Source of the DNA: Mytilus galloprovincialis
Lineage: Eukaryota > Mollusca > Bivalvia > Mytilida > Mytilidae
Length of the DNA stretch: 64,000 bases
NCBI RefSeq assembly: GCF_965363235.1
Contig: NC_134849.1
Span: forward strand, 13,728,863-13,792,862
Direction of reading: 5' to 3'
Shown here one piece after another: positions 18,320 to 60,700 of the stretch (the stretch's first letter is position 1; each line of letters opens with the position of its first letter). A program made the position numbers and the translations under genes. The notes beneath the pieces are model-generated. The model saw nothing but the letters and a program-made list of their open reading frames with translations, had not been told where the DNA came from and searched no databases.

Positions 18320-19800
18320 ATATCATATAATCAAAGTTATGTCATGAAAATAATAATTTATAGAATTTTGTTAATATGATAAAAAAGAACTCATTAAACA
18401 CATTAAACATACTAGGCTTAAAGGTAAGTTTGACCAACATAAGACTCAGGAGCAGTATAAATTATTCGAGATAAACTGCTTTTTTTGCCAACTTGAGGAG
18501 CATTGAAAATTGAACACCACGATTAATCTGAACTATTAAACTCGTCATAAATATTTCAGGCTTGCAATTTTATACTCCAGACGCGAGTGTCGTCTAGAAA
18601 ATACTCATCAAAGATGCTCGAATAAAAACAAAATAAAATGGCCAAATGAATTTCTAATCCAAAAGCATTGAATTAGGCTTATTAGGGATAAGCCGAGAGG
18701 AAAACATCTTTTTGCGAAGATTTTGAAAAAAAAAATCCAAAAGATGATTCCCATATTAAAATCATAATTTTCAAATTTGATTTTTTTTTATTATGTTGCC
18801 ATGAACTTATTCATTTCAAAATTTTACTTTCGTCATAATTAAATTGACCAGTAAAACATTTATAATGAAGATAGACAATATAAGTCAAAAATTTTGTATA
18901 TTCCTATTAAAATGAAATTAAAAATAAATTGTTATCTCGCACCTACTATTAATATCCTTAAAGGTTGCATTTCTGTAAATATTGACAATGCAATTTCCCG
19001 TAGGAACTCCTTTTACGGCTAAAACTGTACCACTTTTACTATGAAGTTTTGAAAAAAATCTTATCCTAGAATTGAACGTTCATATGCACCACATTTTTTT
19101 TCAAAGGTCAAAATATAGGGCGGCATATTTTCAACGTTTATATGCCCTGAACTTCTCAGAGTTTAAACTTACACTTATTTTCTTAACTACCCCTACCTCG
19201 AATGAAAGGTTACCACAGATTTCAATGTAAACAATATGCACGTGTTTATTTACTGGTAACATTCCCAAGTTCTGTCTCTGCGATATGGAACACAGAGAGC
19301 ATAACTGGGAACCAGTATGTAAACAAAATCAATTTTCTATGAATATTCAATTACTCCCCAAAAGAGGCGTGTTTTGAGAAACAGCTGTATTTACAAAGTG
19401 CAACCTAAACATGTTAAATCCATGTGAAATTAAAATCTAAATTGGTCTGAACATAAAATACATTTGATATGTCTCAAAATAGCCTCAATGAACATTGTTT
19501 ACTACTTTTTTACAAGCTCAGATGTCTCTTTGCAATTGAAAATAATTATGAAATTAATATACACATACATAAATGGATCATATTCGTTTCAAAGTTTTTT
19601 TCTAATTATCAATCTGTGAAAGTTACCCATTTTCATTTAAAGAAACCAGACAGTATGAAATTAACATTTAACTTAAAATTCAATTCAAAATATTCATCTA
19701 TTTAACAAACTTAAGCTTTAATCTCCCACGTCTCAAATCTAACAAAATTAGTTTTTGAACAGCGATTTTCTATAGTGGTTTCCCTAGTTACAACAAATGA
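18320..19800. other. upstream region of the secreted-protein gene, no exon seen
   Basis: AT-rich. A decayed minus-strand copy of the hammerhead-like repeat is visible at 18560-18622 (CCAGACGCGAGTGTCGTCTA then ACTCATCAAAGATGCTCGAA). Nothing else is supported. Confidence 0.4.
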
Positions 19801-19868: not shown

Positions 19869-22800
19869 ATGAAATCTTTGTTTCTTATCGTTGTCGGAAT
19901 AGCAGTGGTAAAGTCTAGCATCTTTGAGAGAGAAACATCTTTAAAGGTAACTTTACTATTTTTGAATCGAGCGTCACTGATGAGTCTCTTGTAGACAAAA
20001 CGCGCGTCTGGCGCAAATACAAAATTTCAATCCTGTTTCTGATGAGTTTATTATGAATATCAATAATGTGGTCATTTTAATAAATTTCCTGTTACAAAAC
20101 TTTGAATTTTTCGAAAAACTAAGGATTTTCTTATACCAGGCATAGATTACCTTAGCCGTATTTGGCACAACTTTTTGGAATTTTGGATCCTCAATGCTCT
20201 TCAATTTTGTACTTGTTTAGCTTTATAAATATTTTGATATGAGTGTCACTGATGAGTCTTATGAAGACGAAACGCGCGTCTGGTGTACTAAACTATAATC
20301 CTGGTACATTTGATAACTATTTACATACCCTTTGTGCTTATGATTATTTATTTGCACAATTGGATTGAACCAATTGACAATTCCATGCAATGTTTTATTT
20401 CTAAATTTAGTGCTTCACATTTTATGTATACAGGTTAAGGCAACGTTGACCTGAAATGGATTTGATTATTATTCTACAATGTCTCTTTAAAAAGTAAAAT
20501 AACAAAAATACCGAACTCGGAGGAAAATTCGAAACGGTCAGTTCGTAAACAAATGGCAAAATCGGCAGCTCAAACACATCACATGAATAGATAACAACTG
20601 TCATATTACTGTCTTGGTACAGTCACTTACTTATAGCTCTTAACGGATATCGAAACTGATGTGTTTCCCCCTGAGGGTATCACCAAACCAGTATTGTGCA
20701 TTTCTGTGTGGACATGAATTATCATTGATATGATCATATTTATAGATTAACAGTTTACAAAACGTTACATTTTTAAAATATAAAGGCTTGTCTACCTCCA
20801 GAATAGATTACCTTAAATAGCTGTATTTGACAAAACTCCCCTGTGCTTTCAACTCCATACTTAATTTGGCCGTCTTAACTTTTTTTTTAATTCGAGCTTC
20901 ACTGATGAATCATTTGTAGACGAAACACGCGTCTGGCGCAATTACAAATTCCAATCCTAGTATCTCTGATGAGTTTATTTATAGGTTTTGCTTTCCCAAT
21001 TTTTGTTTACAAGCGTACTTGATGCACAACCGGAAATCTAACTTTGGTAGAATACGTTTCCGTGGAACTTATTGAAAAAAATCACATAAAGGTCAACTCT
21101 TATTAGCGTTTGATCATATAGTTGAATTTTTAGAAAAACTAAGGATTTTCTTACCCCAGGAGTAGATTACCTTAGCCGTATTTGGCACAACTTTTTGGAA
21201 TTTTGGGTCCTCAATGCTCTTCAACTTTGTATTTGTTTGGCTTTTTAACTATTTGGATCTGAGCGTCACTGCTGAGTCTTATGTAGACGAAACGCGCATC
21301 TGGCGTATAAAATTGTAATCCTGGTACTTTTGATAACTATCTTCAATTGCTTCGTTTTTTATCCCCATTTGCTTTCATATAGTCGTTTCCAGGTGAAGAC
21401 ATATGAAAGCGCTACGGTGGACGCATGCCATTTAAAAGTGTTGTTTTTTTACTGCTGCTGCTGAACTATCAGTTCCCGAGTATCCTCAGGCTGAGCTCAG
21501 CGGTCAACATTTCAGTACTGAAACGATTTATAGCAAACAATTTCAACATTCTTCGTCTATAAATGTAGAAACATTTTAGAAAACTAAAGTTTCCACTCCC
21601 TCAGGCAGAGTTGATATTAAATGGATTTAGCTAAAATTGTCCTACATATTTGGTCATATTGCTCGTTAACTGTTTGCTATTTCATATGTCATCGGCTATT
21701 TTATATGTCATCGGCTTTCAAATATTCGACTTTGAGCGCTCCCAATGGAGGTAAATAAGAAATGCCATTCGAACCCCTAAGATCCAAAAAGGTGTTGTTT
21801 TAAATTTTTATCCTAACTTTTCGAGAAAACTAATTAGTGCCGCATATTTCGTTATACTTAATATTTCAGTATTGTGTTTGATTATTCAGAAGCATGTCGT
21901 TTTTGCGATCACTTCTTTACAAAAGTATAACATGAATAAACCGTATTGTTGCATACATGTAAATACACTTATCATAGATACTAGGATTGAAATTTAATAT
22001 GTGTGCCAGACGCGCGTTTCGTCTACAAAAGACTCATCAGTGACGTTCGAATAAAACAATAACGTTAATAAGTAAAGATATGTTGTTAAAACTGTAGTGT
22101 GAATATATAAAATTATATTATACTGTGAATAGTAATTAAGATAGATATGATACAACTTGGTGACTGTGTACTGCTCAAATTTTAGTCTTTACTTTTGATG
22201 ATAGCAAAATGTTCTACCCCATACAAGATACCATAAAAACATAATTATGCGTAGAAGGTTAATCTATAGGACATATGGAATTGCTTATTAATTTTCTCAT
22301 TATTATTACCACAAAATGAACTTCTTATTACCTAATTATTATTCTGTCTTTTTTTATCAAAAGTTTTTGAAATCATTAATATGTTATCGAATAAAAGTTT
22401 ACAGCATTGTATATGTTATTTAAACAATATCTTTTCTGTGTTGTGTTTTTCATAATGAATTGTAACTTTATGTTTCTTGTTGTCACGAATGGCTTTTAGG
22501 AAGTTTAATGGTTAAAATTTTAACAATATAAAAAAAAACATGTAATACGATTATTTCCTTGTGAAAAGTAAAGCATTGGTGGTCACGTGATTTTCCAACA
22601 CGTTTCCTTTCAATTATAATTTTTTTTAATCTCCTTTTAAATTTGTTTTCCCAATCTTTTTTCACTTTTGTTTATTGATATTGTTTTTTCCCTCTCAGAC
22701 TAGACTGAACGTTGGTGAATGGGATGGTTTCCAGACGGCATCAGCCATACATGGACTTGCATCGGCTAATGAAAACGAAATGAAGGCAATTATAAACCAG

Positions 22801-25800
22801 ATATCTAAAGAAGATAAAGCGGCATATATACAGGAAATGAAGAAAGAATTGAACGCCATTGGAGGCCTTTTCTCTAAGTTACGACGTGGTATGTAATGTT
22901 TAACTTTCAGTAATGCACAGAGTGGGAATTGGGTTTAACATATATGTTGGCTTTGTTGAATAAAATGTTTTAGGAAGGAGGTGAAAATAAAAAAAGTGAA
23001 TTGAAACGGGGAAAGTGTCAAATGGACAACATTCCGACGAAATAGTAGAAAGCATATCAATGCAACCCATGGGCTATCAATGAAACGAGAAAATCTGGCA
23101 CCTAGAGACGTGCTTTAACTGGCACCAAACAATAATGCATACTAGTTCAGCGCAATGCATGCAACGCCAACCTCCACAACATACAAAAAATAATGTTATA
23201 AAAACTCACACAAGTATAACAAAGCCTAGGAATTCCTAACTCGGAAAAGGCGCAAAAAATGTGATGGGGTTAATGATTTAACACTCTCCTTTACCTCTAG
23301 CTAATAAGGAATTTACAAACACACAGATTTAGAACAACGCACATTTAACTGAAATGAAGTTTTGATTTCATGTAGTTATTTATTAACATGGTGATTAAAT
23401 TAGAATGTTTGTACAATGTACAAAATTGTATTCTATTCTAGTTGACTGGAGTAAAGAAAATGCAATGTGCGATAAAGTAATGGCAGATGAAAGAGAGCTC
23501 CTAAAAGAATTCTATAAACTGATGTCTATGTTACCTCACGACGGTAAGATAAAACGAAAGAAAATTTACATTTTATAGCAAACTGATTACTTTATGTATC
23601 AGGGTTATGTAAAAGACTGTCTCGTCTTCTTTTTTTTAAAGGTTATCGGAAGATATCAAAACCTTGTTGGTAAATATTCCGTATCAACTTCACAAAATAT
23701 CAGATGGTTTTGAAGTATAGATTCTAGGTACTGACTTTGTAATCATCCTAATGTCGTGTTATAGTCTCTGCGTTCTTTTTCTTTTTTACTTTGTATATTT
23801 TGCACCTTTAATGTTTTTTTTTCAATTTTTGGTTATATTCTCTAGGCGTCACTCGGTGTTTATACATCCCGCTACTGTGTAATAGTGCTATCATAATGGT
23901 AAATATTTGTATTCTTTTCTTTTATTTTTTCTGATGTACTTTATCTATAGAGTGCCTTTATGCCATTTTCTTTTTCTTTATTGAAATAGTTATTTGTTTT
24001 ATTGTGATTAAGATTATAACGCCATATGGACTACTGTACCCTAATTTCTGACAAGTTTATCGTTGTTTTTTTTTTGTATTTTTGCTGTTGCTGAAATATT
24101 GTTGTCAATGTAATTGAACCCTTTGCTACTGGCATAACAGTCAGAAATATGACAGTTGGTTTTCATTTGTATGACGAGTTTGAGATTTTAAGTTTGCCAT
24201 TTTAAATTTTCCTTGGAGTTCGATATTTTTTTCTATTTTACTTTCAACATTGTCATGATTGTTGATAAATAAAAAAAAACATCAATCCTGGTATCGATGG
24301 AGATCTTCTCTACAAAGGTGTCACAAGCAAATGCCTATGTAGTCAGTCCTTCCATGTAGACAGGAATTGTCACTGAAAGGGTCATTAATATACCCAAGGA
24401 ATAGTAAATATAATTTACCGTAGCTGTATATTAGAAAACCTTATAGGAATTTTAGGTCCTCAATGCTCTTTCATTTTTCACTTTATTTGGCCGTTGTTAC
24501 TTTTTTAATTTTAGCGGCTTTTGTAGCGAAACACGTTTATGACGTTCGAATTCTTAATCCTGATATTTATTACGAGATTATTTATTGTTGTATAACAATG
24601 AAAATTAATACATTTATATACACAAACATATTGACATATTCCTAATCGCATCAAAATGTTTTTTTTACAGAACAACTGGTGGCATCCGCTACATGTTTTA
24701 CTGGTAAGTAAGATCTAAACATATCAGATGAGTAATTTGAAGGGCACCGTGGGTATTTACCAATAATACATGTTGTATGCAAGAAAGGGCTATGTTAAAC
24801 AACTCAATAAGACAGCAACCCAACGACAGAAACAATGAAAAGCTATATGCGTATGCTCAACATACAGTCTTCATCAGTATACATATTGTCAATATACTAA
24901 AAGTTATATCCTAAATAGAGAATAATTGACAAAAAAATAACGCCGCCTCCCACCCCCAATACAGAAAACTACAAAACTGAAAACACGGGCCCTCCCAACC
25001 CTAAGATATTCACCATTGATGAAAAAAAACATTTTTTTTCAATTCAGTAGATCAATAGGTATTGGAAGATGTGGTGTGAGTGCCAATGAGACAACTCTCC
25101 ATCCAAATAACAATTTATAAAAGTAAACCATTATAGGTTAATGAACGGCCTTCAAAACGGAGTCTTGGCTCAAACTTATTTAATTTTTTTTTTGTATCGA
25201 GTATGCAATATAAAGTGGTAATTAATATTTATAAATTAGCAGTCAACTAAATTGAATAAAGAATAATTTTCAAGGTAAAAATTTAGATCTATATGCTCCA
25301 TGTAAAAGCGTCGAGTAATTTGAGTTAATTTCAATCAATATATACAATTGATGAATGAATTTTCATAGTTAATGATTGACTTAATTTCCATTCAGGTTTA
25401 AAGTCAATAAACTATGACAATCCAAATGAGCAGGAGGTTCAAAAAGAAGTGTTCGATAAAGTTGATGATTGTGAGGAAAATTTCTTCAACGCATTACGGA
25501 ATAGAATTGATGGCAGTTCTCTCAGTATGTACAGTTGTTATCTATTATATCATTTTTGTCGAGCCTTCGGCTTTTGCCGAAAAAGCGAGACATACCGATT
25601 CTACATTCCGTCGTCTGCGGCGTCGTCCACAAATATTCACCCTGTGGCTAATGTTTTGAAATTTTAATAACTTTCTTAAAGTATCCTTGATTTCTGCCAA
25701 ACTTTGACAGAATCTTAATTATGATCATGAGATAGTATCCAGAAAGAAGTGTTGTAAAAAGAAAATCATGTTTATCCGTATTTTACTTATAAATTGACTT

Positions 25801-28800
25801 AGTTTTTCTGGCAGTTTACATTACATTGACTCTGTGGTTAAATTTTTTGAAATTGTAATAACTTTCTTAAACTATCCTGGATTTCTACCGAACTTGGACA
25901 GTTTATGTTCAAAAGCAAGTATCAAAAAGGAATTTTGTAAAAATATATTTCCTGTTTTCTGTATATCACTTATATATGAGCGTCACTGATGAGTCTTATG
26001 TAGACGAAACGCGCGTCTGGCGTACTAAATTATAATCCTGGTACCTTTGATAACTAATTATATATGAACTTAGTTTTTTCCAGTTAATATAACATACAGT
26101 CTGCAGTTAAAGTTCTTTAAATATTTATTAGATTGATAAAGAAGGCGGGACACTGGGTTCCGCAAAATCCATACGAATTTTTCATATTACCGACTTTTGA
26201 CTCCGGATTCAATAATTATTTAACAGGTTACCGACTTTGTGGTAGCACATCCTGGTACTCCGTCAATAACGACCCACCAAAAGAAGTTAACTCAAATATA
26301 TGATTGGTGCAATTTGTGTCTGTGTGTGTGTGTGGGGGTGGGGGGGGGGGGGGGGGGTGGGGGGGGGTGGGTATTTATTGATTTCGTCCTGTATATAGAG
26401 AATTGAAACAGTTGACTTTCCCTGAAAATTGAAATTACTTATTTACGTTGCTCTTTAGCATGACCATGTTGACTTAGTACCAGGATGTCCTACCACAGTA
26501 AAGGTAGGTATTCTATCTCAAAAAATATAAATTCCGGTGTCAAAAATCGATTATATGAAAATGGACTACTAGTGTTTGAGAAATGTTTTACAATGTACCG
26601 GATTTCTTTTATTTAAAATAAGTCTTATTTAAATTTCTGCCATGGTATTTTCAGAATTCTTTCGATTTATGATTTTGAATACTAGTATTTCCCTTTGATA
26701 TCTGTCACATCTCCGTTTTCCAATGGTTATTTATTTTGGTGAGAACATATGAATATCAAGACAGACAATTTCACTACACATATTACCAATGACATAACTG
26801 ACAATTACATTTAGTATTCGTTTTTTTAACAGATCTTGATGATGCTGATCAAGTTTTAAACTTATTGAGAGAAATTGCCACGTCTTTGAGTGCCGTAGGT
26901 GAGACAGTTGCATTTTCCTGGAACGTTTTCTCGAAGACAGTAGGTCCACAGTATACTCCAGGTACGTATCGTTATATTGACAAAATACAATCTTTTATAC
27001 TTCGTACTTTAAAAAGTAAAAAGGCTTTTTAAAGAGCCTTTTTACTCTTTTTGATTCGATCGTGACGGATGAGTCTTTTGTAGACTAAATTCACGTCTGA
27101 CTAAAATACAAATTTTTCCATCCTGGCATCTATAATGAGTTTATTTATAGAATTCTATAAAGGCATCGGGATAAAGATGTGAGACAATTCACCACATGAT
27201 TTACGCTTATACGATTGACCAAAATTAATTAGATCATAGCAGGTATACGTTGTCAAAGAAAAGAGGGACGAAAGATACCAGAGGGACAGTCAAACTCATA
27301 TATCGAAACAAAAACTGTCAAGACCATGGCTAAAAATGAAAAAGACGAACAGACAAACAATAGTACACATGACACAACATAGACAACTAAAGAATAAGCA
27401 ACACGTACGAACCCCACCTTTCATACAGGTACATGTAGCAGTCTTGGCAAAGAGGTAGGCAAATATCAACAATGATCAATGAGTATCATGATTTTTATAT
27501 ATTTTAAGGAATCTAAGTTAATGTATAATTAGTAGAAAAACAAATTTACAGCAAAAAGTAAATCACAAAAATACTAAACTCCCAGGAAAATTCAAACGGA
27601 AAGTATCAATGACAAAATCAAATGTTAAAACACATCAAATGAATGGACAACAACTGTCATATTTCTGACTTGTTACAAGCATTCTCATTACACCTGGTTT
27701 TATAGAGCTAAACCTCTCACTTGTATGACAGTCGCATCAATTTCCATTATATTTACAACGATGCATGAACAAAACAGACATAATAGGTAAAACAGTCAAA
27801 ATATGGGTACAGCATATTGAATAATGCACATAAGTCAAATGATTTTTTTTTTAAATAAACAGAAAAGATATGATTAAATTCTCAGAAGTCTGAAAGGATA
27901 CATTAGCCAAGGTTTTTTACATGGAAATCTAAGCAAACCGTAATTTCATATTTGAACTGAACAGTAGTATAACTCGGTGTCCAAAAGTCATAAATCGATT
28001 GAGAGAAAACAAATCCGAGTTATAAACTAAACAGTTCCACTGAAATGAACAAAAACAAACGCCAACATACATTGAAACGTACTCTTTGATATCAACTGCC
28101 ATATTCCTGACTTGGTATAGGACATTTTTTTGAATTTGAAATAATTGTGTGTTTACGGGTTAGACAAACCTCCCGTCATAAACGCTTTGTATTATGATTC
28201 TTAGAAAATACAGAAAAAATGAATAAAAACTAAAAAAAAAAAAACAAGTGATGGAATCAAAGACATATTGTCACTAAATTAACACCCTCTACGGGTTAAT
28301 ATACTTCAAAAAGTAATAAAGAAGATGGTAAAAACAAAGATCTGTTTGTTAAAATGAAATATAAGAGGTTAGTTCTTATTTAACCTTCACATTCAGTTGT
28401 AGCCTAATATTCGTGGTACCAACTTTCGTGGATTGGGGAATGACAGTTTTTTCGTGGATATTTGATATCGTGGTTTTGCCAAAGTTTGCATACAAACATA
28501 TAGAAAATTTTCATTTCATTTAATTTTGAAATGCGTAGTTCAACTGTATCTACGAAACCCACAACAATTGGTATACAACGAATAGTAAGGAATACACAGT
28601 AATTTGTTGTTACTGTTTTGGTTTTAACTCTATGTTAAACTAAGTATACGAATATCATAGTATTACATACCCTTTATAAATACTGTAAGCCAACTTATTT
28701 TAATTAAATAAATAAAAAAAAAAAAAAAATTGGTAAATAAAAATCGTCGCAAAATTGTTAGTTTCAATATATTTATTTATATAGTGGATTGGAAAACAAG

Positions 28801-29631
28801 TTATTAGAACTTATATTAATCACTTTCCAATTTTCGGGTGCGAGTGCTGCTCTTTTTCGAAATCTACAAGGGTGTCTTTAACGTGCAAGAGATCTGGCTT
28901 TCTCTTAAGACGAGTCAGCCATGTATCGTCCCCTTCCGACGGACTATCGTTTCCTCAAGACTATACTCGAAAATGGTGTCAAGGGAGAGCGGAAAATTCA
29001 GTCCCTGAAATTTCCTCCCCGGAACGGGGATCTAACAAGGAACCTTTGAGTAAGTAGTCCGATGCACTTACCACTACATCGAGGCTCTCTTTGTTAAACA
29101 AAATTGTTAAACTTTGATCTTTCCTTATAATACTACATAAAGTGAATTTGAACATCGCTAAATTAAATCCCCGCGAAATGAGCATGAAAGGACTTAACGC
29201 GAAATAAAGGATCCGCGCCAAAAAAATCGGTTATAGTTAACAGCTACATTTATGCGAATTACTATCTTCCAGGACACCTAAGGGAAGCAGTTCAAAATGC
29301 AGCACGTGACGTCCCATGCCGACTTTTCTTCATAAGGGAAACAGATTGGGACAACGAGGATTTTGGTGGACAATGCGAAATGCAACCTGGTACACCTACC
29401 AATCCAAGTTCCAGTAGCTCTCCAGAAGGTCAAGGACCAGTTGATACTCAAAGTCAAATCTCTACTAGAAAACAGATAACCCAGAAAGCATTTCTTGCAT
29501 TTGATAGAAAAACATCAAATTCTCTTGCAACAAAGGGACCACACGACAAGACTAAAGGCGCAGGATTAAACCAAAGTTTGAGAAACATCCTTCGACGTCT
29601 CACAAATGAAGAATCTGGTTCCCCCCTGTAA
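19869..29631 (+). CDS. predicted secreted protein of unknown family, seven exons, 339 residues
   Basis: Not recognised. Exons: 19869-19946, 22699-22888, 23442-23543, 24671-24703, 25396-25524, 26833-26961 and 29273-29631. Every junction is GT/AG and in frame; the first intron is phase 0 and the other five are phase 1. Exon 1 encodes a signal peptide (MKSLFLIVVGIAVVKS) followed by a short linker. The mature part is charged and mostly helical in appearance, with five cysteines: one each in exons 3, 4 and 5 and two in exon 7 (VPCRLFF and GQCEMQ). The last 80 residues are Ser/Pro/Thr-rich and then basic, ending LRRLTNEESGSPL. Exon 3 (CDKVMADERELLKEFYKLM) and exon 5 (FDKVDDCEENFFNALRNRI) look like relatives. 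A TATA box sits upstream. All introns are loaded with repeats; a hammerhead-like repeat begins about 24 bp after exon 1. The exon joins are inferred without transcripts. Confidence 0.75.
19971..20320 (+). mobile_element. hammerhead-core repeat pair bounding a 270-bp body, block A (intron 1)
   Basis: Two copies of the hammerhead-like unit, at 19971 and 20243, enclose a body that contains CTAAGGATTTTCTTATACCA and CCGTATTTGGCACAACTTTT. The copies contain CACTGATGAG, a GTCT/AGAC helix and the AAAACGCGCGTCTGG or GAAACGCGCGTCTGG segment. The body recurs in block B at 21120-21262. Confidence 0.7.
20490..20640 (+). repeat. dispersed repeat, ATTCCTGACTTGGTA family
   Basis: Shares the phrase AACACATCACATGAATAGAT and what follows with 27600-27680 and 38500-38560 (AACACATCAAATGAATGGA). 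No coding potential. Confidence 0.55.
20786..21340 (+). mobile_element. hammerhead-core repeat pair, block B (intron 1)
   Basis: Unit copies start at 20896 (decayed: GCTTCACTGATGAATCATTT) and at 21263 (GCGTCACTGCTGAGTCTTAT), 367 bp apart. The body at 21120-21262 matches block A almost base for base. Upstream, 20800-20890 is a further, more decayed body copy, which suggests that the element once existed as tandem units. Confidence 0.7.
21971..22046 (-). mobile_element. single hammerhead-core unit, minus strand
   Basis: On the minus strand it reads CGTCACTGATGAGTCTTTTG, then TAGACGAAACGCGCGTCTGG, then a tail with CAATCCTAGTATCTATGATA. The helix GTCT/AGAC is intact. Confidence 0.75.
22990..23325 (-). 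repeat. decayed ACCCGACC-family element (intron 2)
   Basis: Left side GAATTGAAACGGGGAAAGTG resembles the arm at 13079. The right side GCGCAAAAAATGTGATGGGG is the complement of the 15020 region. No coding potential. Confidence 0.5.
24440..24590 (+). repeat. strongly decayed hammerhead-core element (intron 3)
   Basis: Body phrase GGTCCTCAATGCTCTTTCAT, then TTTTGTAGCGAAACACGTTT and ATCCTGATAT: the remains of a body plus unit as in blocks A and B, lying just before exon 4. Confidence 0.5.
25058..25185 (+). repeat. AGATGTGGTATGA-family repeat (intron 4)
   Basis: Begins AGATGTGGTGTGAGTGCCAA, then GAGACAACTCTCCATCCAAA and AACGGCCTTCAAAACGGAGT. Same family as 9418-9640. Confidence 0.6.
25553..26130 (+). 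repeat. element with a terminal hairpin and tandem 190-bp units (intron 5)
   Basis: Starts with a stem-loop (TGTCGAGCCTTCGGC pairing with GCCGAAAAAGCGAGACA) and continues with two related units near 25656 and 25846 (phrase TAATAACTTTCTTAAA). The second unit carries the inserted hammerhead-like repeat at 25980-26057. It begins about 30 bp after exon 5. Confidence 0.55.
25980..26057 (+). mobile_element. solo 78-bp hammerhead-core unit with 10-bp target duplication
   Basis: Flanked exactly by TTATATATGA on both sides (25970-25979 and 26058-26067). The neighbouring tandem unit near 25795 has the same surroundings without the insert (TTACTTATAAATTGACTTAG), which supplies an empty site. The unit starts GCGTCACTGATGAG and ends TACCTTTGATAACTAA. 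Confidence 0.85.
26318..26373 (+). repeat. TG then G-run simple repeat (intron 5)
   Basis: TGTGTG units run into several blocks of 4 to 19 G. Such sequence could form G-quadruplexes. It is also prone to assembly error. Confidence 0.8.
27009..27053. repeat. perfect short inverted repeat (intron 6)
   Basis: AGTAAAAAGGCT and AGCCTTTTTACT face each other around a TTTTTAAAG-type loop, just upstream of a decayed hammerhead-core unit (27060-27150, GACGGATGAGTCTTTTGTAG). Confidence 0.7.
27260..27417 (-). mobile_element. 3'-terminal fragment of the Penelope-like element, minus strand
   Basis: Reverse complement of the tail seen at 1366-1510 and 54218-54365: AAGAGGGACGAAAGATACCA at its left end and ACGTACGAACCCCACC at its right. 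Somewhat diverged. Confidence 0.75.
27550..28125 (+). repeat. two ATTCCTGACTTGGTA-family repeats (intron 6)
   Basis: 27550-27790 matches 38445-38640 closely (phrase CTAACCTCTCACTTGTATGACA, with small variation). 27960-28125 matches 15770-15915 and ends ATTCCTGACTTGGTATAGG. Confidence 0.6.
28762..29090 (-). mobile_element. tRNA-derived SINE, copy 3 (intron 6)
   Basis: Same order as the copy at 9832-10183: tail GTGGATTGGAAAACAAGTTA, body phrase TCTTTAACGTGCAAGAGATC, and tRNA-like head ending GAGGCTCTC. The B-box region is more diverged (GGGGATCTAACAAGG). It ends about 180 bp before the last exon of the secreted-protein gene. Confidence 0.8.
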
Positions 29632-29639
29632 CGCTAATC

Positions 29640-31080
29640 TTACGGATAAAAAAAACATTGCAAGATTTACGAATACAACGAACAAAACATTATCAACTTA
29701 TAATTTCTGATCGCTGATGTTTTTAATTTTGTCTAATCTTTACTTTTTCTCAACACGCAATTATCGTTCCTTTGATATAGAAATGTAGTAATAATAATTT
29801 CATTAGTAAACTGCTTACGCATTCAGTTCTTTTTATTAATTTTGTATACTTGGGGCCCTTTATAGCTTACTGTTCGGTGTGAGCCAAGGCTCCGTGTTAA
29901 AGACCGTACCTTGACTAATAATAAATTTACTTTTATAAATTATGACTTGGATGGAGAGTTGTCTCATGGGCACTTATACCACATCTTCCTATATCTATTG
30001 ATAAAACTCGATTATCCTAGATACCTTTGTTAAAATGGTGTATGCCAGAGGACTCATTTGTGCCACTCAAAGAACAAATAATCAAACATTCCAAACGATT
30101 TACCCAAATACATGGACCCTGTCTCAATTTGTTTTATCTTTGTTATGAAATCTGGAAGTCACCTTCTCTTTTACAATACATGTTTTAACCATTTTATATT
30201 TGCCAGGATATACATATTCTTGCATCTTTGTTCCAAATGAAATCTAATATTTCAAGACCCAATGGTGATCTTTTCTTTGGTCAGGTTGTTGTCTCTTTGA
30301 CACATTCCAAATTTCCATTCTCTATTTGAATATTGTATAAATGTGTAGTCAACACCGAAGTTCTTCATCTAAAGCAGCAGTTGCATTATAACTGATTTTC
30401 TTAAAATAGATATGACTTTTGATTATTGAGTGTTTATCAGATCAGTTGACATGATTTTGACAAAACATTTATTCGTGTTTCCAATGAGATTCAAAATTTT
30501 GTTTTGTGTTCGCAATACGCTTTTGAAATGTTATTGGGACAAAAGAACTGCTTGCTTCATAGACAGTCATCATATGTGTATGCATTGTATTAAGAAATTT
30601 TCAGAAAAATATCAAGTATATCCTATTTGAAATTTCAATGTTAAACACTGTACTGTAATTCCAACTTTTTGTGTTGCAGTTTGGCCGATACCAAATTTTA
30701 TAAATGACCAATTTAGCCACATCTATGTATTATGTACTCGTCATTAAGTAGAGTTTCAGTGCAAAACATTATTAGTATAATATCAAAAACTCTCACATAA
30801 ACATGGTCTGTGGAAGCATCTGTTTGATAATGAAGTCACTTACTTGCTGTGTACCATTTGATCATGTATTTCATCTTAAAGCCATATGTTCCCATTAGAT
30901 TTATAAAACAACAAGTATGTTCCATATTTTGGTCAAGTGTTGTTATTTATCAACAATGTGTTGTGAAGAGCAATATACTATAATGTGTTTATACCTTTAT
31001 GCTTAGAAGGTTAAATCAAAAATCATTTTGAACGTGTTTTGAAAAAGGTTTCAATTTTTAATCACAATATTAATAACATT
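29640..31080. other. downstream of the secreted-protein gene; dispersed repeat pieces only
   Basis: Contains an inverted AGATGTGGTATGA-family piece (29870-29992) and an ACCCGACC-family arm (30275-30325). AATAAA at 29920-29925 could serve as the polyadenylation signal but lies inside a repeat. No other exon is seen. Confidence 0.4.
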
Positions 31081-31082
31081 AA

Positions 31083-31500
31083 AGGTACTAATTTTCCTGC
31101 CACAGATGCGCATTTCGACATACATTTCTCTTCAGTGATGCTCGTGGCCAAAATATTTGAAATCCAAAGCTTATATAAAAGATGAAGAGCTACAATTCAA
31201 AAGGTCCAAAAGTAATGCCAAATCCGTGAAAGGACTCAGAGCTTTGCATGAGGGAGATACATTCCTTAATTTATAATAATTTCTCACTTTTTGTAACAGC
31301 AAATTTTAATAACACAAAAAAATCCGTATTTTCATGCCAGTACCGAAGTACTGGCTACTGAACTGGTGATACCCTTGGGGACTAACAGTCCACCAGCAGA
31401 GGCATCGACCCAGTGGTAGTAATAACATTAACGGTACCAATTTTCCTGCACCAGATGCGCATTTCGACAATACATGTCTCTTCAGTGATGCTCGTGACCA
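31083..31500 (-). mobile_element. hammerhead-core repeat pair, divergent subtype, block C
   Basis: Two minus-strand units (31083-31150 and 31433-31496), 346 bp apart, enclose a different body (phrase CCAGCAGAGGCATCGACCCA on the plus strand). The right unit reads GAGCATCACTGAAGAGACAT, then GTATTGTCGAAATGCGCATC. Relative to the standard unit, helix bases have changed in pairs. Confidence 0.65.
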
Positions 31501-31709
31501 AAATATTTAAAATATGAAGATGTGGTATGATCATAAATGAGACAACTATAATCCAAATTTCAAATGAAGTGGATGTATGCAATTATACACAACGATACAT
31601 TTATCAATTATAAGAAAAAATCATATAGTACTCAGTCATTGAAGGATCTAACAAGAAAATTAGGAAACAATTCATTTGAGAAAAGTAACGACTTAATTTA
31701 TGATTTACA

Positions 31710-50591: not shown

Positions 50592-51602
50592 TTTTTTTAT
50601 TTTTTATTTATTTTTTCAATAGTCAGGATTTAACATCACCCTTACAGCACCACCTGACTAAGGTGTTACAGGGTTTCAAATATATAACAACAAAAGACTA
50701 TTGTTTTATCAAGATTTACACAAACTAAAAAATAAATATTTTGAAAATCTTTTTTTTTCTCTCTCTCTCTCTCCTTCTTTCTCACTCTCTCTTTCTCTCT
50801 TTTTTCACAATCTCTTCATATAGAAATATCTATAGATTATTTTACAAAAGAAGAAAAAAAAGAAGGTTTACATGTGCTATGCATATATTACATGTTGTTT
50901 GCTCTGTTCCATAAATAGGTCAAAAAGATATATATATTGATATAAATTTGGTTGTTAGATTACCATTCAGGATAAATAATTTGCATAGGGGCCAAAAGTT
51001 TTTCAAGTTCAAAAACTTTGTTGTATTTTCTTGCTGTATATAACTCTAAGTTATAAAAGTTTCTCAGTCTATTTTTTTAATTCAATTGCATTTGGAAGCT
51101 TTTCTTCTAGCTTGCATTTATATATGTATTTTTTGGCAAAAATTGCAAGAAAATTTAAAAATAAGCTTTCTTCTACAAAACCAAGAAAAAAGTTTTTTTT
51201 GTTAAAATCAATGTTAACATAGAAATTTTTCAGGCAAGCACAAAACAAATATAAAAAATTTGATGTCACTTGACAATCATAGAATAAATGTCCAATAGTT
51301 TCATCTTCACATCTACAAAAAGAACATAACTTTGTATCTTTGATTTTAATCTTATATAAAAATGTATTTGTAGGAATAGTCCTATGTAAAAACTTATATT
51401 GGAAATTATACAAATATGTATCTCTACAACATTTCTGAAGTATACAAAAGTATTTCTTCCAGTCTTCAATGTTAGAATGCAGCTCATCCTCCCATTTTGA
51501 AAATTTTACAACTGGAGGATGTGCACATTTTACAATAAGATTATTATATATGAATTTGATATTTTTACTGCTAGTAATTTTCTCCAAATTTTTTTTTTTT
51601 TA
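50592..51602 (-). mobile_element. 5'-truncated LINE with 12-bp target-site duplication
   Basis: Flanked by ATTTTGAAAGGT at 50580-50591 and 51603-51614. The minus-strand 3' end is an A-rich tail (T-rich at 50592-50626 on the plus strand), preceded by a GC-richer 3' segment (phrase CCTTAGTCAGGTGGTGCTGT). Only the last part of ORF2 remains. A run of 14 T at the other edge is unexplained. Confidence 0.85.
51069..51587 (-). CDS. C-terminal remnant of a LINE ORF2 (zinc-binding RT tail)
   Basis: 172 residues. The block CSFC, then nine residues on H, then C (from LCSFCRCEDETIGHLFYDC) matches the zinc-finger-like region found after the reverse transcriptase in many LINE ORF2 proteins. W and F residues of the preceding YLYNFQYKFLHRTIPTN block (positions about 57-75) also fit that domain. 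The upstream endonuclease and RT domains are absent because the insertion is truncated. The clade (Tx1/L1-like versus I/Jockey-like) is not decided. Confidence 0.75.
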   Translation of the reverse strand: MEKITSSKNIKFIYNNLIVKCAHPPVVKFSKWEDELHSNIEDWKKYFCILQKCCRDTYLYNFQYKFLHRTIPTNTFLYKIKIKDTKLCSFCRCEDETIGHLFYDCQVTSNFLYLFCACLKNFYVNIDFNKKNFFLGFVEESLFLNFLAIFAKKYIYKCKLEEKLPNAIELKK

Positions 51603-52430: not shown

Positions 52431-52558
52431 GGAACAAGAATGTGTCCATAGTATACGGATGCCACATTGGCACTATCATTTACTATGTTTAGTGGACCGT
52501 GAAATGGGGTAAAATCTCTAATTTGGCATTAAAATTAGAAAGATCATATATAGGGAAC

Positions 52559-54371
52559 ACATTACGTAGACACTCTATCCGAATGGATAAAGGCAGTGAG
52601 GTCCTTAATACAAATCAGAATTAAGAAACTGAATGGGTCCATCAATGCCCATGCTACGTCAATTTTTAAAGACCCAAATGTTGCTAAACACCTATCCGAC
52701 CTCCATGATAAATATGTTGTTGTCCCCGCAGACAAAGCCCCAAATAACATCGTTTTTGTCTGTAAAAGTCATTACATTAATTGTTTGATAAACGAATTAG
52801 GTATAGACAATTCACTTGGAAACTCAACATATACCCTCACGACACTTACCAAAGAGGAAATCCTGGATAATCATAGGTCTGTTCTTTGTTCCTTTGGTAT
52901 TTCAACCAAAGATGAAGAACTGGATCTTCCATCACTGTATTGGATACCTAAACTACATAAGTGTCCTTACAAACAGCGGTATATTGCTGGGTCTTCCAAG
53001 TGCTCCACAAAACCTCTTTCTAAATTATTAACATCCATTTTATCAGCAATCAAAGACGGGCTTCAAAGTTATTGTGAAACTGCCTATTCTAGAGGTGGCG
53101 TGAATCAGATGTGGATACTTAAAAATTCCAAAGATCTTTTAGAGTACATACAATCTAACTCTCTTTCATCTTGTAACAGTATTAAAACATTTGACTTCTC
53201 TACTCTTTACACAAGTATTCCACATTCCAAACTTAAAGACAAATTAAAAGAGTTGGTATTACTTTGCTTCATAAAAAAGAATGGCCAACGTAGATACAAG
53301 TATCTTGTCTTAGGGAGGGATAAATCCTACTTTGTAAAGAATCACTCTGATTCAAACAAAAAATTCTCTGAAACCGATATTATCAAGATGCTTGATTTCT
53401 TGATTGACAACATATTTGTTACGTTCGGAGGACGTGTTTTTCAACAGACTGTCGGCATACCAATGGGAACAAACTGTGCCCCTCTACTTGCTGACTTGTT
53501 TCTTTATTATTATGAGGCTGACTTCATGCAGGAACTTCTTAGGAAGAAAGATAAGAAGTTAGCAATATCCTTTAACTCTACTTTCCGCTATATAGATGAC
53601 GTTCTTTCACTAAACAATTCAAAATTTGGTGACTATGTGGAACGCATCTATCCCATCGAATTGGAGATAAAGGATACTACAGATACAGTTAAGTCAGCTT
53701 CATATCTTGACTTACATCTAGAAATTGACAATGAGGGTCGGTTGAAGACAAAACTTTACGACAAAAGAGATGATTTCAACTTTCCAATTGTGAACTTTCC
53801 ATTTCTAAGTAGCAACATTCCAGCAGCACCTGCATACGGGGTATATATCTCTCAATTGATACGATATTCCCGTGCTTGCATTTCCTATCATGATTTTCTT
53901 GATAGAGGGTTACTGCTCACAAGGAAGCTATTAAATCAAGAGTTCCAAATGGTGAAGTTGAAATCATCCCTTCGTAAATTTTACGGACGCCATCACGAGT
54001 TGGTTGACCGTTATGGAATAACCATTTCACAAATGATATCGGATATGTTCCTCACGTCGTAACTACAATCCCCTTCCCTTTCATGAATTTGACCTACCGA
54101 ATTAGACTATTTACCGGATTTGTAATCACATAAGCAACACGACGGGTGCCGCATGTGGAGCAGGATCTGCTTACCCTTCCGGAGCACCTGAGATCACCCC
54201 TAGTTTTTGGTGGGGTTCGTGTTGTTTATTCTTTAGTTTTCTATGTTGTGTCGTGTGTACTATTGTTTTTCTGTTTGTCTTTTTCATTTTTAGCCATGGC
54301 GTTGTCAGTTTGTTTTAGATTTATGAGTTTGACTGTCCCTTTGGTATCTTTCGTCCCTCTTTTCTTCTTTT
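52559..54371 (+). mobile_element. Penelope-like retroelement, 5'-truncated copy
   Basis: Consists of the reverse-transcriptase reading frame (52596-54062) and a 3' tail of about 310 bp (54063-54371) whose last 150 bp recur alone at 1366-1510 and 27260-27417. No endonuclease domain (GIY-YIG) is seen here. In family members that have one it may lie on the missing side, or this lineage may lack it. Confidence 0.75.
52596..54062 (+). CDS. reverse transcriptase of a Penelope-like element
   Basis: 488 residues without interruption. Motifs in order: PADKAPNNIVFVCK (44-57), LYWIPKLHK (114-122), FDFSTLYTSIPH (199-210, RT motif A), GIPMGTNCAPLLAD (287-300, motif B), RYIDDVLS (331-338, the catalytic YxDD block, motif C) and SYLDLHL (369-375). 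The LYT(S/N)IPH form of motif A and the MGTNCAPLLADLF form of motif B are typical of Penelope-like and related endogenous RTs rather than LINE or LTR enzymes. The first Met may not be the true start, because the element is cut on its 5' side. I remember near-identical proteins as very abundant in bivalve gene sets. Confidence 0.85.
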   Translation: MRSLIQIRIKKLNGSINAHATSIFKDPNVAKHLSDLHDKYVVVPADKAPNNIVFVCKSHYINCLINELGIDNSLGNSTYTLTTLTKEEILDNHRSVLCSFGISTKDEELDLPSLYWIPKLHKCPYKQRYIAGSSKCSTKPLSKLLTSILSAIKDGLQSYCETAYSRGGVNQMWILKNSKDLLEYIQSNSLSSCNSIKTFDFSTLYTSIPHSKLKDKLKELVLLCFIKKNGQRRYKYLVLGRDKSYFVKNHSDSNKKFSETDIIKMLDFLIDNIFVTFGGRVFQQTVGIPMGTNCAPLLADLFLYYYEADFMQELLRKKDKKLAISFNSTFRYIDDVLSLNNSKFGDYVERIYPIELEIKDTTDTVKSASYLDLHLEIDNEGRLKTKLYDKRDDFNFPIVNFPFLSSNIPAAPAYGVYISQLIRYSRACISYHDFLDRGLLLTRKLLNQEFQMVKLKSSLRKFYGRHHELVDRYGITISQMISDMFLTS

Positions 54372-54793: not shown

Positions 54794-57700
54794 TGTAGTA
54801 GGTGGTTTTCTATGCGTTAATGAATAACACCAACAAGAGCTAAAGGTTCTGATGCTTTATTGTACCAGTATGTAAATAACAAGTCTGAAATAGCAATACA
54901 ACATATATAAATAACAAGCTATTTCATATAACATAAATATATCTAGTTTACGAATATCACAGGTTATATAATACAGAAATATAATAAATAATACCTTTAA
55001 CTGTTTTTAACTAAATAGCAAGTTAAATGTATTGCAAGTAGAAAATGTTCAATGTTTACATTCAATGAAATTGACATCGGGTGTCACGTGTACTTTTACA
55101 ATAGCTTGACCTTTGTCTATACACTAAATCGGAATGTGATATGTATTTACGTGTAACTGTATTTGTATTCAATACTGGTTTACCTTACAAACGGTATATA
55201 ATAAATGTTACAATTACATTTATTAATAATGCCTTCATTAAAATATATAATACGTATAATAATTAACTACATAATATCATACAACAATCATAAAGTTGCA
55301 AATATAATAATCATAAAGACTTATGATGTCAATATTATCGATTCGTTAAAAGCTCCAAATTAACGGGAGGTAATTCATGTTTACAATACAATATAAACAA
55401 AGTTAAACTATAAATAAATATACTCTTACCACTTGTGGAGTGAGTTGTACTGATACGATTAACGGCACATCATATAAACATCACACAATCATGTGCTTTA
55501 CATAATTACATTACATGGAGTCCTGAAACCAAAATACGAACATAAATACTCGGACTCTAATTATAAAAATATACAACGTAACAAATATTCTTTACGCATT
55601 CATATTTGTACTTGGTAAAAACTATTTACTACAAAACTATTACTTTATATAAATGGAAACACTTTTCCGTCTTTCACTTAATAAGCCGTCATTTATAAAA
55701 TATAGACTATTCATGACAATAATCAAATAGTAATGTACGCAAATTAACAATACAATTCTACCGTGGCAAATAAACCGTAGATTATAAAATCATATACTTC
55801 TAGCTTAATAAAATACTATCTTGTACATCTCGTGTACTTGTGTTACATGCATGCGCTATGAGGAGAACGTTACAAAACAAATAGAAACTTTACTAGAATA
55901 TCATTTACGTGAAAAATACAAATAATGTTAATAAAGAAGTAACTTACAGTATTCTATAATAAAGTTGTCCAAAATATATAAGGTTTACAGGTAAACTATG
56001 TGGTCAAGATAAACAGACATAAATTCAATGGACTGTCATGGCTATCGTCCCGTGGAAATGTACAGGTACAAAACAAAGGAAATTAAACTTGACCGCGAAA
56101 ATATAAACAGCCAATCAGATACAATGATTTAAGTAAATCCCTAATGAATATTCATAGAAAATAACGTGAATATTACTATACATAAAAATAGGGTTTGCAA
56201 GTAATAATTTAAACTGAATATACAATATTCAAATACGTAATTAAGCTTTATAATAAATATAGTAATTAAATAAATGATTTTTACAATATATAAAATGATC
56301 ATAAAAATCACTCTACTACATTCTCCCCGCTGTAGGAAAATGACTTCCACGTCATTCCGGTCTGTTTCCCCCTTCACTGAAGGTTGACGTCCTCGGCAAG
56401 CCATTAACCAGTTCGCATGATGTCGAGGATGGTTCTTGACAACTCCATCTCTAAACCTTTAAATCTTCCTTTTCTTGCTTCAGACTCCAACCAGTGAATC
56501 CTCATTAACCAATCCGGCTGTAGGATAGTAGTAGCCTGCTTGGATACAACATAGTCATCCAGGTATTTCGGTTGTTTCCTTTCCCTCTGAGGTCTAGTTG
56601 ATACTGGTGGGTCGCGTGGTGGTGTCGGTAGTATACGTCTCCTTCGAATTCGTGGTTGTTGTTCCGGAGCTATGGTGGGTTCATCTGCCTCTTCATGTGA
56701 TAAGTCTGTTGGCGCACTCTCATCTCGATCAATAGAAGTGTTTTCTTCAGTAGTCTGAGCAGTCGCTTCTTCAGGTTCCTCATCACTCACAGGGTTTGGT
56801 TCTGCAGCTGTATTAATGTCCACAGGAAGAGCGTCCCCTCCTAAACCAGTTCCCTGCTGATCACTACTCTCAGCTCCATCATGGCCGTCACCAGTGAAAC
56901 CAAGAGTTCCTTCTTCTTGTAGGTCCACAACTGGTACATCACTGTTAGTGTTGTCCTGTGTATCCTGATCAAGTATATAATATCCATACTCCTGCTCCGA
57001 CTCCTCATCTGATACTTCATCAGTGGTCCTGTTCTCACTGTTCCCTTCAGATTTCGTCGGTTCCTCGGGCTGCTTCTTTCTTCTTTGCCTGGGCGCAGGA
57101 CGTTTCTTTTCTTTCTCAATATTATCTTTGGGCAGATCTCCAATAGGCAAGAACAGATTTCTATGTAGAGTCCTCTTTCTTCCTTCTTTATTTTCTTTCT
57201 GAACCACGTATACTGGTATTCCACAATTAGGCTGACTAATTATACAGTACGGGTCATCTTCCCACCTATCTGCTAACTTGTGCTTTCCATTAAAAGCTAG
57301 AGTCTTGACTAAAACTCTATCTCCAGGCTTTAGCACAGCTCCTTTTACTTTCTGGTCGTAGTGTGTCTTCTGTCGTTTCTGGGCAGTAAAGATGTTCCTT
57401 GTTGCTGTATCATATGCTTTGCGTAGTCTTTCTTGCATTTCCTCTGCATACTTAGTTGTGGTAATAGGTTCAGCTTCATCTCCAATTCCAAAAGCGATGT
57501 CGATAGGTAGCTTTGGTTGTCTTCCGAACATCAGGAAGTATGGAGAGAATCCAGTTGATGTTTGACGAGTGCAATTGTAAGCATGAACAAGACCAGCAAC
57601 ATGCGACTTCCAATCTTTCTTCTGGACGTTCTCTAATGTTCCAAGCATACCAAGTAATGTCCTGTTGAAACGCTCGGTGATGCCATTACCCATTGGATGA

Positions 57701-60700
57701 TACGGTGTTGTTCTTGACTTAGTCATACCAGTGATGTTGCACAATTCCTTAATTATTTTGGATCCAAAGTTGGCACCTTGATCGGAGTGAATTCTTTCTG
57801 GCAAACCATAGTGGACGACAAAGTTGTTGAAGAATGCGTCTGCAGTTGTTTTTGCTGTCTGGTTTCTTGTTGGTATTGCCAATGCATATCGAGTGAAGTG
57901 GTCTGTTATAACTAGTATGTTCTCAAATCCACCTGTAGATCTTTCAAGTGAGAGATAGTCCATACATACTAACTCAAGAGGTTGTGTCGTCTCGATGCTA
58001 ATGAGAGGTGCTCTGTGATTTGCAGGTTGCTTTCGTCGAATACATCTGTCGCAATTCGATATCCAGTTGTCAACATCTCGATTCATTCCAAACCAAACAA
58101 AACGATCTCTAACCAATGATACTGTTTTGTCTCTGCCTTGATGTCCCATCTCATCATGTAATGCTGTTAATACTTTGGCAATACAGACTTCGGGTAATAC
58201 AAGTTGTTTATGTTGTTCCCCATTGTCGTGGATAATACGGTAGAGTACGCCATCAACCATTTTCAATTTGTCGTAGTTGTTAATAAACCAAGTGTTCCAT
58301 GGTGAACGTTCTAACTGTTCTTTTCGTGGCTTGCGATGTTCATCAACCCAATATATCCAATCTTTCAGGTAAGAATCTTGCTTCTGTTCCATCTTGATGT
58401 TGACTAGGTGTTGTGATGGTAAGTATGGATCATCAGTGGCTTTAGTTGTTGTCATCGATAACGTCTGAACATATGGTTGTGCATGTTGTAACTGACAAAT
58501 GGCTTTCACAGAATCTGTACTAATGTTAGAGGTGTTGGTACGACAAAGTAGTTCTGGAAGTCTGGAAAGTGCATCTGCATCAGCGTTGTTGGCACCAGGT
58601 CGATAAACGATGTTAAAGTTGTAAGATGACAAACTAGCTATCCAACGATGACCAGTGGCGTCTAGCTTTGCTGTTGTTAAGACGTAAGTAAGTGGGTTGT
58701 TGTCTGTAACCACGGTAAATGTGTTGCCATAAAGGTAATCATGAAATTTCTCTGTTACTGACCATTTCAGAGCAAGGAATTCTAACTTATGGACTGGATA
58801 GTTCCTCTCAGTCTTGCTAAGTCCTCTGCTGGCATAGGCTATGGCTCTTTTCTTTCCTTCTTGTGATTGGTACAGTATTGCTCCAAGACCAAGCATAGAT
58901 GCGTCTGTATGTAACTCAAAAGGTTCCTTGTAACGTGGATAACCAAGAACAGGTGGCATCGCTAGTTGATTTTTGAGCTTCTGGAAGGCATCTTCTTGTG
59001 GCTTGTCCCAAACCCATGATGTTACTGTTGGCTTCTTAAGTTTTCGTTTACTAGACTTCTTTGGAGCAGGCATCAAGTCTGTGAGCGGTCTTGCTATCTT
59101 GGAGAAATCTTTGACAAACTTGCGGTAATAACCGACAAAACCAAGGAAGCGACGTACTTTTTCTTGCGTTGTGGGTCGAGGCCAGTTGATGACTTTCTCT
59201 AGTTTATCTGGATCGGGTGAAATACCATCTTTAGAGACAATGTGACCGATGTACTTGACTTTGTCTTTGAAGAATGCACATTTCTTGGGCGAAAGTTTCA
59301 AGTTGTGTTCTCTTAGTCGTTGTAGTACCATCTGTAACCTTTCAAGATGTTCTTCGTACGTCTCCGAAAAGATGATCAAGTCGTCAAGGTATATAAAGCA
59401 TATATCTAGGTGAAGATCTCCAAGTATCTGTTCCATGAGACGTTGGTAAGTTGCTGGACTGTTTACGAGGCCAAACGGAAGTCTGTTAAATTCATAGAAA
59501 CCAAGAGGGCCGACTGTAAATGCTGTTCTAGCCTTGTGTGTCTCTTCTACCTCTACTTGGTGATAACCACTCTTCATGTCCATGACGGTATAGTAGTTGT
59601 TTCCTCCCAAGGCGTCAAGGATTTCTTCGCTTCTAGGAAGAGCATATGAGTCTTTAATCGTCAGCTGGTTCAGTTGTCTATAATCTACACACATTCTGAG
59701 CTTGTTGTCTTTCTTCCTAACCAATACAACATTCGATGACCAAGGCGAATGTGAACGACGAATGATCCCAGCAGTAAGAAGTTGTTGAAGGTGAGTTCTA
59801 ACTTCGTCGAATAAGGCAGGTGGAATACGCCGGTGTCGTTGTTTGAATGGTGTTTCATCTATCAGTTCTATCTTATGCTGTACGGCGGTAATGTGGCCTA
59901 TATCAGTATCTGAAGTGCTGAATACATCTCTGAATTGATGTAGTAGTTCTCTGGCTTTACGTAGTTGATCATCAGTAAGTGTATCTGGAAATGTAGATTC
60001 ATTCCATGCATCTTGTTCGTAGGTGTCTGGTACATCAATGTCGGTGACCGAAACAGGTTGAAGTTCGCAAAGGATGGCATTTGGCGAAACGGTCACTGTT
60101 CTGGTAGTTACATTGCTGATGTGTACTGGTATGATGCTGTTGTTTCTATACTGATATGATACTAGTGATGGAGCTATATCTAAGTCTGATGGTATTGCTG
60201 CTCTATCAGTTGACTGTAGGAGTCCACAAACTGGATGGTATGGTAGTTCATGGTCCATGTATCCCTGTAGAACGACATCTTTGTTAGGTGGTATACGGAT
60301 TGTCTTTCCTTCAGCACTCTTGATGATGGCAAGTCTGTTGCATCTCTTTTGCAGTTCTTTATCTCTTAAAAGCAAACATCTAAATGTGATATACCAAGGT
60401 GTATGTAGATCTGCTGTTTGTAGAAAGCGTGATCCATATCGTTGCTTTACATCAGTCATAGCTGCTGTCAAAACGTTGGTTCCCAGTAGAAGTGGTACTA
60501 GCTGGTTGTAAGAACTGTCTGGAACGACTAACAGTAAGCATTGTTGAGGATCTGCTGATGTAGATGTACCTGGTAATTGTAGATCTGCTGAGATGTAACC
60601 AAGGTATGGCATGTTCTGGCCATCTGCACATTCAATGTTGAGTATCTGGTTGAGTGTCTGGATAGGACTGTCAGCAAGGTACTGTCGATGGAATGACTGA

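Follow-up and report, generated by a model that had tools for sequence, protein, structure and literature searches.

Retrozymes are non-autonomous retroelements that bear a hammerhead ribozyme (HHR) and spread by way of circular RNA, and here we describe copies of such an element in a stretch of 64,000 nucleotides from the mussel Mytilus galloprovincialis (assembly GCF_965363235.1, contig NC_134849.1, positions 13,728,863 to 13,792,862 of the forward strand), the whole of which is referred to as the window. The closest described systems are the non-long-terminal-repeat (non-LTR) retrozymes of the same mussel (Cervera and de la Pena 2020; PMC7229834), which in the sections of that paper drawn on here have a type I HHR, repeats of about 350-390 bp and thousands of copies. 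Their RNA self-cleaves at about 0.1 per min, is circularised by RtcB in vitro and forms abundant circles in gonads and mantle, and the same sections present Penelope-like elements as a strong candidate for the helper and leave priming open. Plant LTR retrozymes likewise spread through circular RNA (PMC4918200, in the part consulted), but differ in having type III HHRs, LTRs and circles of 600-800 nt (PMC7229834). Penelope-like elements with type I HHRs differ in encoding a reverse transcriptase (RT) and an endonuclease, and in an HHR helix III of one pair.

The repeat in the window is in kind the published mussel non-LTR retrozyme, and the object is therefore already known; an earlier note on this DNA, made from its letters alone, had rightly linked it to mussel retrozymes and Penelope-like elements. 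The paper reports, in the parts covered, two families of similar sequence with ~5000 copies, whereas we find four (A, A', B and C) at more places; the two families described in the paper may correspond to A and A'. What is new is a common 3' insertion end beside a conserved block, both of which are absent from the covered parts of PMC7229834. No fixed 3' end for retrozymes is reported in the titles and abstract openings of the literature found in searches of which only one was aimed at the insertion mechanism.

The ribozyme and its four families

Well-kept copies read GCGTCA-CTGATGA-GTCT-NNNNN-AGAC-GAAA-C-GCGC-G-TC^TGGCGT, and judged by sequence the repeat carries a type I HHR. Its predicted stems are an open helix I of 6 bp (GCGUCA/UGGCGU), a helix II of 4 bp and a helix III of 2 bp closed by a GCGC loop, and this form places the cut after the downstream GUC. 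The conserved core of RF00163 (CUGANGA, GAAA and NUH, with helix I open and helices II and III closed) is present. The earlier note had correctly recognised the core elements CTGATGA, GTCT/AGAC and GAAA, all of which are seen on inspection across 19971-31496, a span in which copies of a single kind of repeat are scattered over both strands. Its helix I of a single base is an error that arose because the upstream GCGTC was used as helix III and cleavage triplet. These letters recur downstream, where the second occurrence is followed by the helix I partner strand; the downstream GAAACGCGCGTC, followed by TGGCGT, is the overlooked remainder of the ribozyme, and GCGCGTC^TGGCGT gives an ordinary type I HHR. 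With a helix I of 6 bp, the ground on which cleavage in cis had been doubted falls away.

The Rfam model Hammerhead_1 (RF00163) aligns end to end in five window copies, with scores from 33.0 to 21.1 bits and E-values of 4.4e-05 to 0.38 (scan of 11.9 kb). The gathering score is 34 bits, so that the best copy is 1 bit short of it and nothing in the window matches at the gathering threshold; an A' copy outside the window (locus L070) reaches the cut-off at 34.0 bits. The bare CTGANGA motif shows only a mild excess in the window (33 occurrences where 21 are expected, a count reached in 2 of 100 shuffles). Sub-threshold Rfam matches to microRNA, small nucleolar RNA and type III models were taken as chance, and matches to CTGGTGA...GAAAC are the opposite strand of the conserved block described below and not ribozymes. 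The copies are listed here; monomer positions count from the first base after the ribozyme cut, and percentages are blast identities unless stated otherwise.

18537-18671 (-), old A' insertion outside the span given above, monomer 272 to 45, 74%; weaker HHR core at 18577-18611 (-)
19959-20052 (+), A' insertion, 5'-truncated, monomer 314 to 47, 89%
19971-20014 (+), standard HHR unit, type I, family A', GAAA changed to AAAA, Rfam 27.9 bits
20053-20325 (+), family A insertion, 5'-truncated, monomer 127 to 45, 96%
20243-20286 (+), standard HHR unit, type I, family A, helix I GTGTCA/TGGTGT, Rfam 29.1 bits
20658-20981 (+), older A' insertion, monomer 81 to 49, 77%; standard HHR unit at 20896-20939 (+), Rfam 21.1 bits
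21122-21340 (+), family A insertion, monomer 177 to 40, 93%, its core with CTGCTGA; weaker HHR core at 21269-21303 (+)
21455-21675 (+), old copy of family C comprising the conserved block and the body, 72% identical to that of locus L052
21958-22052 (-), A' insertion, monomer 320 to 51, 91%; standard HHR unit at 22003-22046 (-), Rfam 30.8 bits
24415-24584 (+), old A' insertion, monomer 229 to 49, 72%
25974-26060 (+), family A insertion of 87 bp, 5'-truncated, monomer 312 to 43, 99% to the family A monomer
25980-26023 (+), standard HHR unit, intact type I, family A, helix I GCGTCA/TGGCGT, II GTCT/AGAC, III AC/GT closed by a GCGC loop, predicted cut 3' of GTC; Hammerhead_1 33.0 bits over model positions 1-45 of 45
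27040-27147 (+), old A' insertion, monomer 305 to 49, 83%, with decayed HHR; weaker core at 27066-27100 (+)
31068-31557 (-), family B insertion of 490 bp, monomer 253 to 37, 91%
31332-31414 (-), conserved structured block in the family B copy, 3' of its first HHR, 88% identical to its counterpart in the L052 copy of family C and in the four-family consensus fold
31448-31491 (-), type I HHR, family B, helix I GCATCA/TGGTGC, II GACA/TGTC, core CTGAAGA, helix III AT/AT with GCGC loop, recognised by sequence; no report in the Rfam scan of the window

The family B insertion contains a pair of HHR cores at a distance of 350 bp, of which one has decayed (CTGAAGA at 31479 and 31129). Both sides of the insertion at 25974-26060 are flanked by TTATATATGA, likely a target-site duplication. 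At the junction 20052/20053 a family A copy starts exactly at the 3' end of an A' copy, as though one retrozyme had used the AT-rich tail of another as its insertion target.

Place counts were taken over 1,384,861,812 bases in 331 contigs and are lower bounds; reversed-pattern controls gave 0 for each family. Family A occurs at at least 34,858 places (a 37 nt core with up to 3 mismatches), the closely related A' at at least 3,000 (39 nt, up to 1 mismatch, overlapping the A count), family B, to which the divergent unit near 31 kb belongs, at at least 6,471 (40 nt) and family C at at least 2,696 (37 nt). Family C was discovered through loci that have the conserved block but other flanks. Cores of A and A' are spaced 351-367 bp apart in 23 of 28 intervals (the others are 225, 272, 336, 497 and 588 bp), those of B 347-352 bp apart in all 17, and C has 8 tandem units of 350-354 bp. 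The type I HHR thus lies inside non-coding tandem units within the range of about 170-400 bp that marks metazoan non-LTR retrozymes.

Changes between the families largely preserve the predicted pairs. From A to B, 12 of 12 type I stem pairs are kept over 9 substitutions, 4 of them being changed on both sides (simulated P = 1.3e-4); 10 of 11 are kept from A to C (P = 5e-4) and from B to C (P = 3.4e-4, with P = 0.009 for double changes), all on the assumption of independent substitutions and a given structure. The sequence of the divergent unit at 31433-31496 (-) agrees with the earlier note (GACA/TGTC, CTGAAGA, and GCAT with ATGC), and the paired changes it saw there are real and exceed chance between families. 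The change from GCGT/ACGC to GCAT/ATGC, however, mixes two stems, being a helix III C-G to U-A and a helix I G-C to A-U. A covariation test had also been proposed, and in small form it gives an excess between families; within family A it finds decay, with the partner change mostly missing. There the 5' strand of helix I is changed in 27 of 56 distinct rows, some of which end at the insertion's own 5' end, and most of these changes lack a partner, as expected of dead insertions. The pattern indicates that the HHR structure is under selection between families, on few lineages. A search for another family, one in which the second helix II pair has G or C, gave only 5 places genome-wide, 1 paired and 4 not, which amount neither to a family nor to a sign of compensation there. 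Overall the interpretation given in the earlier note is partly supported.

A common 3' end beside a conserved block

To map insertion ends we took 97 loci, excluded 22 that overlap, and aligned the remainder together with the window to the A, A' and B monomers, scoring insertions of at least 60 bp that have both ends inside the locus. The loci stand at the head of the list of places; they lie mainly on contig 1 and most of them match exactly, which tilts the sample towards well-kept copies. In narrow windows for the 3' end, at 40-46 (A), 45-53 (A') and 32-38 (B), 76 of 96 insertions end, or 74 distinct ones (A 41/48, A' 15/22, B 18/26); in 17-nt windows at 36-52, 43-59 and 28-44, with duplicates removed, the counts are 43/48, 15/22 and 18/24. 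Both sets were chosen after the data had been seen, and the 17-nt set was placed relative to the block. Among L001-L070 and the window, none of which was picked by its tail, 61 of 77 insertions end in the windows. Family C was mapped later: the 3' end lies inside the locus in 17 of 20 fetched, and all 17 end at 36-42.

The 5' ends are scattered, with a circular resultant of 0.23 (74 insertions) against 0.85 for the 3' ends (all 96), and the 74 insertions are 61 to 1,294 bp long. Insertions extend past the ribozyme cut site, and at many loci several units follow one another at equal spacing. In these samples, therefore, most insertions of the four families share a 3' end and, being variably truncated at the other, range in length from about 60 bp up to several units.

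The shared end lies beside a block, beginning CACTGGGTCGAT, that starts at 47 (A), 54 (A'), 39 (B) and 45 (C). In the same order of families, insertions end at a median of 42, 49, 34 and 40 nt from the cut, and in every family at a median of 5 nt upstream of the block. Pooled over 93 insertions, the standard deviation is 2.09 nt relative to the block and 4.96 nt relative to the cut, although the medians are the safer measure because the A, A' and B windows follow the block. Since the distance to the block is constant over four families and that to the cut is not, the block and not the ribozyme may set the start of copying.

The block is also the best conserved part between A and B, where two bins of 30 columns reach identities of 0.87-0.90 and the remaining ten 0.37-0.73. 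Its predicted fold is a rod plus a hairpin and, in families A, B and C, includes a UUCG loop. The consensus fold of 13 chosen sequences has 27 predicted pairs, 4 of which are changed on both sides, and its covariation term contributes only -1.41 of -32.62 kcal/mol; between A and B, 8 of 8 hairpin pairs are kept over 6 substitutions (P = 2e-3). An AC-rich stretch adjoins the retrozyme ends (ACACCAC in A, ACATCAC in C). Elsewhere, 43 copies of the block follow one another at a spacing of exactly 350 bp (C1:433590-448317). Within the block (for example L001:1576-1667), GGGTCGATGCC resembles the consensus of the RNA polymerase III B box; ARAGORN finds no tRNA in 6 loci, and a tRNA-like origin was rejected. 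We would give an even chance to the block being a second RNA device, an internal entry site on circular RNA that a Penelope-type RT would bind, to start about 5 nt upstream and copy once or for many rounds.

Probable copying from circles and its alternatives

We consider it highly probable that the repeat is a metazoan non-LTR retrozyme, non-coding and of about 350-363 bp, that would be copied from an internal RT start on a circular or uncut template, with a Penelope-like element as the most likely helper. Transcripts of tandem copies would cut themselves at the type I HHR, and the monomers would be ligated into circles. An RT supplied by another element would copy the circles back into DNA, starting internally next to the block and proceeding through the tail and the rejoined cut site around the circle, to stop anywhere. 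The template should be circular or uncut because a linear monomer cut at the ribozyme would yield about 50 nt at most. A shared 3' end with variable 5' ends fits internal initiation on a circular template, as seen in vitro for a Penelope-like element (PMC11167929, in the part consulted).

Several observations weigh against this reading, in addition to the choice of end windows noted above. Sixteen of the 77 insertions miss the expected end, 9 of them lacking a ribozyme core and 7 having one; the copies in L007, L057 and L067, well kept (94-98% identity) and with a ribozyme core, end elsewhere. Target-site duplications are weak, with a mean score of 4.96 against 4.64 +- 0.12 when shuffled and 5.03 in the top of 200 shuffles. 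At E<=1, Rfam reports no family B or C copy in the three such loci scanned. Folded as an isolated stretch, the HHR lies above the minimum energy in A (-5.7 against -9.2 kcal/mol), A' (-7.1 against -14.5), B (-3.7 against -7.8) and C (-2.0 against -8.0), minimum-energy folding recovers the hammerhead in none of the families, and folding z-scores are -0.35, 0.86 and 0.27. The copies of family C read (L123-L142) have A.A at the 10.1-11.1 pair; the family with this mismatch is abundant and forms tandem units. The 4 double changes from A to C, counted alone, are weak (P = 0.033). Finally, a pattern search of L098-L122 shows that no Penelope-like locus read shares the retrozyme block or tail.

Alternatively, the repeat could be akin to a short interspersed nuclear element (SINE) with a fossil ribozyme, moved in the form of a linear RNA whose 3' end would be fixed at roughly +41, and indeed a fixed 3' end with variable 5' truncation resembles target-primed reverse transcription of linear RNA. 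We regard this as unlikely: the crossing of the cut site and the equally spaced multi-unit loci need circles or uncut multimers, the flanks inspected have no poly-A tail, and circles are the published main form in the mussel (PMC7229834, in the sections used). Less probable still is that tandem arrays arise mainly by unequal crossing-over and that dispersed copies are DNA fragments, since, although the array of 43 blocks at 350 bp could easily have grown by DNA exchange, random fragments would not mostly have one 3' end in common with differing 5' ends in all four families.

The topology proposed in the earlier note, in which the upstream GCGTC is the cleavage triplet, helix III is GCGT/ACGC, helix I has one base and the ribozyme is inactive in cis, has very little left to recommend it. 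GCGTC does stand before CTGATGA, and the changes between A and B keep GCGT/ACGC paired; because 8 of 8 pairs are kept when helix II is included (P about 2e-3), A and B alone do not reject these stems, and it is family C that decides. Its upstream GCGTTC, with AGCGC after GAAA, breaks the GCGT/ACGC pairing, yet it keeps the type I helix I (GCGTTC/GGACGC) and helix III (AA/TT). The proposal also leaves the changes in GCGCGTC and TGGCGT unaccounted for, and Rfam fits the type I form end to end.

Candidate helper elements

The retrozyme units, at about 355 bp, are too short for a frame encoding RT and GIY-YIG, which spans 699-911 amino acids in mussel elements. A GIY-YIG search of the genome gave 147 matches among the 150 that were scored out of 1001 candidates. 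Three loci were read in which RT and GIY-YIG matches lie in one frame, the RT of L101 being just below the cut-off. The family of L102, which carries RT and GIY-YIG domains and to which L117-L119 were assigned by their HHR, has in its HHR the GCGC loop seen in the retrozymes. In L102 a pair of inverted copies agree in sequence as far as +59 after the cut; in other copies of this family homology stops somewhere from +59 to +162 or further on, the limit being blurred by TA repeats. For L103-L122 only 801 bp behind the GIY-YIG match were covered, and the frame start lies mostly outside. A hammerhead-like motif in L098 failed the descriptor and was not used.

The window itself contains the following other elements.

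51069-51599 (-), zf-RVT match, 33.4 bits
52554-54062 (+), open frame of 502 amino acids with RT match, RVT_1 27.5 bits (cut-off 29.6)
56404-61170 (-), open frame of 1588 amino acids with RT, RNase H and integrase, RVT_1 137 bits, rve 55.6 bits

The first is probably a fragment of a long interspersed nuclear element (LINE); the frame at 52554-54062 we take to be Penelope-like by its motifs, and that at 56404-61170 is presumably Gypsy-type by its domain order. A blast of L098-L102 and the window RT region against the retrozyme monomers gave short weak matches only. Because no locus read shares the block, the Penelope-like enzyme, although the most likely helper, is a candidate only.

In the Anolis Penelope-like element PAc, an AC-rich stem loop downstream of the hammerhead contains the internal site at which the RT starts in vitro, and AT-rich targets are preferred (PMC11167929); the main text of that paper does not refer to retrozymes. 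What moves animal retrozymes, and how a circle that lacks a 3' end is primed, is the question that PMC7229834 leaves unsettled in the parts covered. A shared insertion end tied to an RNA block makes this question of helper and priming directly testable, with one short RNA, one candidate type of enzyme and one predicted start site.

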